From Deltaproteobacteria bacterium (GTDB lineage Bacteria; Myxococcota_A; Polyangia; Haliangiales; J016), in the NCBI GenBank assembly GCA_003696105.1, contig RFGE01000219.1, forward strand, positions 1 through 58,330: a stretch of 58,330 nucleotides of DNA. The letters run 5' to 3'. Of this stretch, positions 14,083 through 20,716 are shown piece by piece (within the stretch, counting starts at the first letter, position 1; each line of letters opens with the position of its first letter). Both the position numbers and the translations under genes were made by a program. The notes under the pieces were generated by a model. It had not been told where the DNA came from. It searched no databases and was given only the letters and a program-made list of their open reading frames with translations.

Positions 14083-16311
14083 ATGGCGGACTCGAGACTC
14101 CTCGTCGCGTCCGTGCGGTTGCCCGTGTCGCTCCACCGCCGCGACCACGCGTGGGCCGTCGCTCCGAGCCCCGGCGGGCTCGCGACGGCGCTCCGATCGG
14201 TCGCCGAGCGCCGCGCGTTCACCTGGCTCGGCTGGCCGGGCGCGCACGTGCCACCGGCCGAGCGTGACGCGGTGCGCGCTCGACTCGCCACCGCGGGCGC
14301 GGTGCCTATCTTTCTGGGCAAACGCGAGTTTGCGGGCTTCTACGAGCAGTTCAGCAACCGGCTGATCTGGCCGCTGTTTCACAACCTGCCCGAGCGCCTG
14401 CACTACGACCGAGCCGCGTGGCGCCACTACCGCCAGGTCAACGCGCGCTTCGCCGACGCGATCGCCGAGCAGGCACGGCCCGGGGACACGATCTGGGTAC
14501 ACGATTACCAACTCGCGCTGGTGCCGCAGATGCTGCGGGAGCGCAAGGTCGCGGGGCCGATCGGGTTCTTCTTGCACATCCCGTTTCCGTCGGCGGAGAC
14601 GTACCGCACGCTGCCCGTGCGCGAGGAGGTACTGCGCGGCATGCTCGGAGCCGACCTCGTCGGGTTCCACACCTACGAGTACGTGAGCCACTTTCGGAGC
14701 GCGTGTTTGCGCGTTCTCGGCGTCGACTCGGAGCCGGAGACGGTGTACTTGCCGTCGCACTCGGCCCAACTCGGCGTGTTGCCCATCGGCATCGACCCGG
14801 ACGAGATCGCGCGCCTGCGCGACACCGACGAGGCGCGCGAAGAGTTGGAACGCCTGCGGCGCCGGTTCGCCGGCAAGAAGCTCGTCGTAGGCGTCGACCG
14901 CCTCGACTATACCAAGGGCATTCCGCAGAAGCTCCTCGCGTTCGAGGAGCTGCTCGCCGCCAACCCGCGGCTGCGCGGCAAAGTCGTGCTGATCCAGGTG
15001 GCGGCGCCGTCGCGGACCGGAGTTGCCGAGTACCAGGAGCTCAAGCGCGAGGTGGACGAACTCGTCGGTCGGATCAATGGCCGGTTCGGAGCGACCGACG
15101 ACGTGCCCGTCGTATACATCAATCGAAACTTGTCGCGCGCGCGGCTCACGGCGCTGTACCGCGCGGCGGACGTCGCGCTGGTCACGCCGGTCCGCGACGG
15201 GATGAATCTGGTGTGCCTCGAGTACGTCGCCGCGCGCGGCGACGATCCCGGCGAACTGGTGCTCAGCGAGTTCGCGGGCGCGGCGGCCTGCCTGTCCGGC
15301 GCGCGCCTCGTCAACCCGCACAACCCGGAGCACGTGGCCGAGGTGCTCGCGGCCGCGCTCGACGCGGTGCCGGACCGGACGGCGTTCGAGCACATGACGG
15401 AGTTCGTGTACACGAATACGTCGGCGGCGTGGGCCGAGCGGTTCCTGCGCCGCCTGGAGGCGCGCTACGAAGAACTGCACGCGGGCGTCCAGCGCCTCGA
15501 CGTCGCCAAGCTGGATGCGCGGTCGACCGACACGCGCGGGCACCGCCCGCTGGTCCTGCTCGACTACGACGGCACACTACAACCGCACGCGAGCGTGCCG
15601 TCGGCCGCCGCACCGACCCGGCGCGTGCGCGACACGCTCGCCGCGCTGGCCGAGCTGGCGACCGTGTACGTCGTGAGCGGCCGGCCCGCCGACGTGCTCG
15701 ACGCGTGGCTCGGCGATCTGCCGATCGGGCTGGTGTGCGAACACGGCCTCAACGTGCGGCCGCCGGGCGGCCGATGGCCGGAGGTGCCGCACATCGACCG
15801 GGACGTGCTCGAGTCGGTCGTACGGCCGGTGTTGCGCGACTTCGTCGACCGGACCCCCGGCAGCAAGATCGAGGACAAGCGCGCGTCGCTGGCGTGGCAC
15901 TACCGGGCCGCCGACCCGAAGCTCGGCGCGTGGCGCGCGCACGAACTGCTCGCGCTGCTCGAGGAGCGGCTGCGCGGCGAGGAGTTTTCCGTGCTGGTCG
16001 GTTCGCGCGTCGTGGAGATCCGCCACCGCGAGATCAGCAAGGGGCGCGTGGCCGCGCGGTTGCTCGACGGCGTGGCGCGCGAGGCGTTGGTCGTGTGCGC
16101 GGGCAACGATCGGACCGACGAGGAGATGTTCGATGCCGTGCTGCGGTCGGGCCACGAGCGCGTCATCGTGTGCCACGTCGAGGGGCGCAACACGATCGCG
16201 CCGTACTTCGTCGAGACGCCGGCCGAGCTGCTCGACCAGCTGGGGGTGTTGATCGACCGCTGGCGCGCCGAGCGCGGAGAGGGCGTCGGGCGCGGCGCCG
16301 CGGCTCCGTGA
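14083..16311 (+). CDS. Bifunctional trehalose-6-phosphate synthase/phosphatase
   Basis: 742 residues. The synthase half (about 1-480, GT20) shows WVHDYQLALVPQMLR, FLHIPFPSAETYRTLP, VGVDRLDYTKGIP and VTPVRDGMNLVCLEYVAAR, the donor and glucose-6-phosphate binding motifs. The phosphatase half (about 490-735, HAD fold) shows LVLLDYDGTL with its nucleophile Asp, VVSGRPADVL, and CAGNDRTDEEMF. Together they convert UDP-glucose (or another NDP-glucose) plus glucose-6-phosphate to trehalose. The one-polypeptide fusion is like the yeast/plant class II and some bacterial proteins. Divergent from the GH15 gene with 30 bp between starts, so synthesis and breakdown may be co-regulated. Confidence 0.93.
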   Translation: MADSRLLVASVRLPVSLHRRDHAWAVAPSPGGLATALRSVAERRAFTWLGWPGAHVPPAERDAVRARLATAGAVPIFLGKREFAGFYEQFSNRLIWPLFHNLPERLHYDRAAWRHYRQVNARFADAIAEQARPGDTIWVHDYQLALVPQMLRERKVAGPIGFFLHIPFPSAETYRTLPVREEVLRGMLGADLVGFHTYEYVSHFRSACLRVLGVDSEPETVYLPSHSAQLGVLPIGIDPDEIARLRDTDEAREELERLRRRFAGKKLVVGVDRLDYTKGIPQKLLAFEELLAANPRLRGKVVLIQVAAPSRTGVAEYQELKREVDELVGRINGRFGATDDVPVVYINRNLSRARLTALYRAADVALVTPVRDGMNLVCLEYVAARGDDPGELVLSEFAGAAACLSGARLVNPHNPEHVAEVLAAALDAVPDRTAFEHMTEFVYTNTSAAWAERFLRRLEARYEELHAGVQRLDVAKLDARSTDTRGHRPLVLLDYDGTLQPHASVPSAAAPTRRVRDTLAALAELATVYVVSGRPADVLDAWLGDLPIGLVCEHGLNVRPPGGRWPEVPHIDRDVLESVVRPVLRDFVDRTPGSKIEDKRASLAWHYRAADPKLGAWRAHELLALLEERLRGEEFSVLVGSRVVEIRHREISKGRVAARLLDGVAREALVVCAGNDRTDEEMFDAVLRSGHERVIVCHVEGRNTIAPYFVETPAELLDQLGVLIDRWRAERGEGVGRGAAAP

Positions 16312-19660: not shown

Positions 19661-20716
19661 ATGAGCAGCTCGCACCGCCGGCTCACGTCGTTCAGCCACG
19701 GCGCTGGTTGAGCGTGCAAGATCCCCAAGGAGGACCTCGGGAAGGCCCTGAGCTTTCTGCCGCCGCTGCCGGACGCGCTTCGCGAACGCATCGTCGTGGG
19801 CACCGATTCGCACGACGACGCCGCGGTCTACGCGCTCGACCGGCACACCGGCATCGTCGCGACCGTCGACGTGTTCACCCCCATCGTCGACGACCCGCGC
19901 GACTTCGGCCGCATCGCCGCCGCGAACTCGCTGTCGGACGTCTACGCGATGGGCGGCGAGCCTCTGTTCGCGCTGTCGGTCGTCGGGTTCCCGATTCGCG
20001 AGCTGCCGGTGGACGAGCTCGGCGCGATGCTCGCGGGCTCGGCCGAAGTCGCGGCCGAGGCGGGAATCGCGATCGTCGGCGGGCACTCGATCGACGACCC
20101 GGAGCCGAAGCTCGGGCTGTGCGTCATCGGCCGGGTCGCGCTCGCGCGCGTCGTGCGCAACGACGCCGGCCGGCCGGGCGACGCGCTCGTGCTCACCAAG
20201 CCGATCGGCACGGGCATCATCACGACCGCGATCAAGCGCGGCGCGGCAGACGCCGACGTGGCCGCGGGCGCGGTGGCCGCGATGACCGCGCTCAACCGCG
20301 CGGCCGGCGAGGCGATGGTCGCCGCCGGGGCGGTCGCGGGTACCGACATCACCGGGTTCGGCCTGCTCGGCCACCTGCACGAGCTGGCGCACGGATCCGG
20401 CGTGGCGGCCGAGATCTCGGCCGGCGCGGTGCCGCTGTTGCCCGGAGCGCGCGCATTGGCCGAAGCGGGGATCGTTCCGGGCGGCACGCGCCGCAACCTC
20501 GACTATTTCGGCCGCTGGGTCGAATTCGACGACGCGGTGGACGCCACTGGGCGGCTGTTGCTGGCCGACGCCCAGACGTCCGGCGGCCTGCTGATCGCGA
20601 TCGCGGCCGACCGGGCGGACGCTCTGTGCGCCGGCCTCGCCGAGCGTGGCGTGCAGGCGGCGGCAATCGGCTACTTGGTCGCCGGCGAAGCGGGACACAT
20701 CGCGGTCCGCGCCTGA
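19661..20716 (+). CDS. selD: Selenide, water dikinase (SelD), selenocysteine-containing
   Basis: 351 residues when the in-frame TGA at 19709-19711 is read as selenocysteine (residue 17). The N-terminus reads SHGAG-Sec-ACK with Lys20, the same positions as catalytic Cys17 and Lys20 in E. coli SelD. Frames that stop at this TGA restart only at 19796 and lose the active site. Downstream are GTDSHDDAAVY, DVFTPIVDDP, DVYAMGGEPLFALSV and AIVGGHSIDDPEPKLGL (ATP/Mg binding), TGTDITGFGLLGHLHEL, and LLLADAQTSGGLLI. SelD makes selenophosphate from selenide and ATP for selenocysteine and 2-selenouridine synthesis. No selA, selB or tRNA-Sec lies in the window. TACAGT 7 nt upstream supports the start. Confidence 0.95.
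19709..19742 (+). promoter_or_regulatory. Candidate bacterial SECIS element in selD mRNA
   Basis: Immediately after the UGA, UCCC (19722-19725) pairs with GGGA (19739-19742) and AGG (19728-19730) with CCU (19735-19737), leaving the tetraloop AGGA whose GG is where SelB-contact guanines usually lie. The distance from UGA to loop is 19 nt, within the usual bacterial range. The inner stem is short, so folding was judged by eye only. Confidence 0.55.

Follow-up and report, generated by a model that had tools for sequence, protein, structure and literature searches.

Selenocysteine-containing selenophosphate synthetases

Selenide water dikinases (selenophosphate synthetases, SelD) that carry selenocysteine (Sec) have been catalogued at least since a 2006 survey (PMC1794560), and the initial annotation of the gene described here was correct in treating Sec-containing SelD as already known in other bacteria. 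The Sec form accounts for 19% of the SelD genes of a reference set, with Sec always at the same position (PMC4561486), and it is among the commonest prokaryotic selenoproteins, forming the second largest such family (PMC13188914, PMC9312934). FdhA, DsbA-like UxxC, and SELENOW-like proteins are also listed selenoprotein families (PMC13188914, PMC9312934), and DsbA-like proteins are among the selenoproteins listed for Anaeromyxobacter (PMC1794560). Our literature search found nothing on the selenoproteome of Myxococc- taxa. Here we describe a selD gene in a 58,330-nucleotide stretch of DNA (the window) and conclude, with a probability of about 97%, that it codes for an ordinary Sec-containing selenophosphate synthetase in which the UGA at 19709 is decoded as Sec17 in a SelB- and SECIS-dependent manner.

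The selD gene

The gene is transcribed rightwards (19661–20716, + strand) and was identified by profile and sequence comparison. Translated with TGA as Sec it codes for 351 residues beginning MSSSHRRLTSFSHGAG-U-ACK, with the in-frame TGA (19709–19711) specifying residue 17, an AAG codon (19718–19720) specifying Lys20, the other essential residue in the loop that binds selenide, and the true TGA stop (20714–20716) positioned at the end of the SelD models. Among the NCBIfam SelD models, NF002098 covers the whole protein at 378.8 bits (cut-off 299), TIGR00476 scores 374.4 bits at the protein level (cut-off 125), and a six-frame TIGR00476 search gives 368 bits while passing through a single TGA. 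In the alignment to the solved SelD structure 3u0o (347 aa) this region is ungapped, with U17 and K20 opposite C17 and K20, bearing out the claim of the initial annotation that Sec17 and Lys20 occupy the positions of the essential Cys17 and Lys20. The predicted assignment to SelD is based on the full-length equivalog match above the curated cut-off together with the catalytic Sec17 and Lys20, and the gene is similarly predicted to be a bacterial selenoprotein gene from the alignment of its UGA with the Cys of homologues and the conservation on either side.

A standard table-11 ORF caller starts the gene at a GTG at 19796, giving a product of precisely 306 aa (19796–20716), a shortening to which the initial annotation had drawn attention. 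This would fit a gene whose N-terminal part is untranslated and that encodes a shorter AIR-synthase-like protein with no catalytic loop, but such a product is highly improbable, as the N-terminal loop is conserved with the SelD proteins of other phyla and the SelD model is matched without a break by residues 2–349. The annotation truncated by automatic callers is now corrected.

Two adjacent and slightly overlapping DsbA-fold genes (PF01323; 18329–18955 and 18943–19578, – strand) are transcribed divergently from selD. The catalytic position is Cys in one (FDFSCPYAYLG) and Ser in the other (FDFSSPWTYLAS), there is no TGA inside either, and by motif we take the pair to be 2-hydroxychromene-2-carboxylate isomerase-like. 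A long ORF elsewhere in the window (14083–16311) resembles by motif a trehalose-6-phosphate synthase/phosphatase (OtsA-OtsB) fusion and is putatively assigned as such.

Codon 17 in homologues and relatives

We fetched 110 homologous SelD loci, in which codon 17 is TGA in 77, TGC or TGT in 33, and nothing else; once the window gene's second copy and a repeated Cys row are set aside, the window gene and 107 others remain, and of these others 75 have TGA, 32 have TGC or TGT, and none has any other codon. The codon for Lys20 has AA at its first two positions in all 108 rows. The same TGA is present in the nearest relatives, one genome of the same family (G001) and two of the same order (G005 and G003), and since it is common to independently assembled relatives a sequencing error – named in the initial annotation as a way in which the reading could fail – or a fresh nonsense mutation is ruled out. 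The assembly is fragmented, and a Cys-type SelD occurs in the related genome G002, both of which would suit a gene that is really a Cys-type SelD or a pseudogene carrying a spurious or recent TGA. We give this explanation hardly any weight, however, since it is refuted by the shared codon, and the frame from 19661 to 20716 is otherwise intact with the TGA at 19709–19711 as its sole interruption, and the genome has the complete Sec machinery as well as five more TGA-containing genes. One candidate for a UAG-coded SelD (L124, on contig C192 of genome G017, with one in-frame TAG) was rejected, as its codon 17 is TGC and the TAG lies elsewhere; that TAG may reflect an assembly error or a pseudogene.

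In a set of 56 related genomes, counting the host's own, 48 have a SelD match (E < 0.001), some of these being merely weak matches to related enzymes. The strong matches are mostly of the UGA type, and the Sec form is the usual SelD in this group of genomes. Genomes with no SelD match also have no selA above the cut-off, and a set of Cys-type SelD proteins is found among genomes that retain selA. About 30 relatives, incomplete ones included, have a UGA-type SelD, and in every one of them selA or a fragment of selA is present, except for G031, which is 73% complete. The pattern agrees with the exchange of Sec and Cys already known in SelD (PMC4561486, PMC13188914).

Selenocysteine machinery and other selenoprotein genes

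The host genome (5.34 Mb in 381 contigs) is approximately 98% complete. The initial annotation had predicted a full Sec system elsewhere in the genome and staked its reading on selA, selB, and tRNA-Sec being found there; all three are present and the reading survives. The tRNA-Sec (contig C150) scores 72.9 bits (gathering score 47) and has a TCA (UCA) anticodon, and family searches find selA at 556 bits (contig C32) and a full-length selB at 307.6 bits in an ORF of 648 aa (contig C15). A six-frame TIGR00476 search found no second selD in the genome; the other match, at 26 bits, is far under the cut-off, covers the general AIR-synthase part only, and was rejected. The selenouridine synthase gene ybbB (SelU), whose product would be another user of selenophosphate, was looked for and not found in the genome either, and with a single selD and no ybbB found, selenophosphate in the host probably serves Sec synthesis alone.

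Searches covering four families of selenoprotein clients found TGA at a redox or metal-ligand site in at least five more genes; the fourth family, CMD/AhpD-type selenoproteins, gave none in the genome. The first of the five is a formate dehydrogenase alpha subunit, FdhA (L133, C93:17059–18327; HQCAAT-U-HAPTV, with the motif CAATUHAP), identified by family search, with a SECIS-like hairpin (GGUGGCC-GGUCU-GGUCACC) that lies within the published rule for bacterial SECIS elements and whose GGUCU loop is about 20 nt past the UGA. Three others have DsbA folds. A FrnE-like protein (L141, C114:9397–9966; SDYC-U-PYC) has its in-frame TGA at L141 reverse-strand position 1525, and its CUPYC motif is related to that of published DsbA-like UxxC selenoproteins but with an extra Cys immediately before Sec. 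The remaining two have TGA in the motifs UPFC (L143, C206; EFA-U-PFC) and UPHC (L144, C209; DYG-U-PHC), and standard callers would break both genes. The fifth is a SelW-like Rdx protein (L146, C303:4302–4514; EYCVV-U-NYY, motif CVVU) with an in-frame TGA, downstream of which lies a strong hairpin (GGCGGCCA/UGGCCGCC). We considered whether SelD could be the genome's sole selenoprotein, in a self-serving loop, and rejected this, as the FdhA, three DsbA-fold, and SelW-like genes show that the Sec system has customers besides SelD. The finding identifies the organism as a selenium user, and among its modest complement of selenoproteins are formate dehydrogenase and several proteins of thiol-redox type.

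The SECIS region

We folded the 48-nt segment starting at codon 17 with RNAfold and compared it with synonymous shuffles. The region after the UGA is more stable than its shuffles in Sec-type SelD genes (median z –1.76, n = 76), whereas Cys-type genes have no extra stability (median z +0.50, n = 32; Mann-Whitney p ~1e-9, uncorrected for relatedness). The hairpin common to the family has seven pairs and a GGUCC loop at about +35 to +39, and is fully paired in 32 of the 76 Sec rows and in none of the 32 Cys rows.

The window's own stretch has no stability beyond its synonymous shuffles (z +0.8), and the same test is weak for each of the other five Sec genes of the genome taken singly, such that the energy of a single gene is a poor test here. 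Two overlapping candidate SECIS hairpins are predicted at 19732–19752 (+ strand): candidate A (CUCGGG-AAGGC-CCUGAG, 19736–19752) with 6/6 pairs and –7.8 kcal/mol, and candidate B (GGACCU-CGGGA-AGGCCC, 19732–19748) with 5/6 pairs in the window and 6/6 pairs in G005 (GGACCU-CGGGA-AGGUCC). The core CCUCGGGAAGG (19735–19745) is identical in the window, G001, G005, and G003, including synonymous third positions, and all four can form a pairing of the A or the B type. In the published bacterial SECIS model the hairpin lies 16–37 nt downstream with a loop of 3–9 nt, a stem of 4–16 bp, a G within loop positions 1–2, and a minimum free energy of at most –7.5 (PMC13188914). The best hairpin of the window, candidate A, has a 6-bp stem, a 5-nt loop, a spacing of about 30 nt, and –7.8 kcal/mol, but falls just outside this rule as the first G of its loop is at position 3 rather than 1 or 2. 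Where other selD genes usually have GCGCA-GGUCC-UGCGC, its loop at about +35, the window's lineage has the core CCUCGGGAAGG instead. It is conceivable, though less likely than not, that the selD SECIS of this lineage differs from the usual one and that the core could act, via a CGGGA or AAGGN loop, as a slightly non-canonical SelB target.

The energetically weak folding of this candidate SECIS might favor a reading of the UGA by a near-cognate tRNA, for example one for Trp or Cys, rather than as Sec. This is very unlikely, given that the 107 homologues have either Sec or Cys at position 17 and never Trp, and that a tRNA-Sec with a UCA anticodon is encoded in the genome. For decoding as Sec17, analogy with the family suggests that the hairpin just downstream would bring SelB, GTP, and Sec-tRNA-Sec to the UGA at 19709, and that the SelB complex would place Sec at residue 17. 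Sec17 and Lys20, in a flexible N-terminal loop, would then take part in the formation of selenophosphate from selenide and ATP, and SelA would use the selenophosphate to make the Sec-tRNA needed by SelD itself and by at least five more selenoproteins of the genome.

Comparison with known systems

The initial annotation's central observation, a SelD with Sec at the catalytic position, is confirmed by the full-length SelD models and by the TGA or Cys codon 17 of the homologues; it is real and correctly interpreted, and is an ordinary and well-known case. General understanding is unchanged, since Sec-containing SelD, its dependence on itself for its own synthesis, and the swaps with Cys have already been described. 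The window gene and Cys-type SelD genes (3u0o; L022 in G002) have a common fold, the SHGAGxxCK loop, and Lys20, and they differ in that the Cys type has Cys at position 17 and no conserved downstream hairpin, whereas the window gene has Sec at 17. The Sec-containing SelD proteins of Anaeromyxobacter, Geobacter, Syntrophobacter, and Clostridia (PMC1794560, Table 3; TIGR00476/NF002098) are like that of the window in being full-length with Sec at the one catalytic position, and SelA, SelB, tRNA-Sec, and FdhA are likewise encoded in those genomes. There is no substantive difference between those genes and the window gene, which has a lineage-specific nucleotide core, CCUCGGGAAGG, in its SECIS region.
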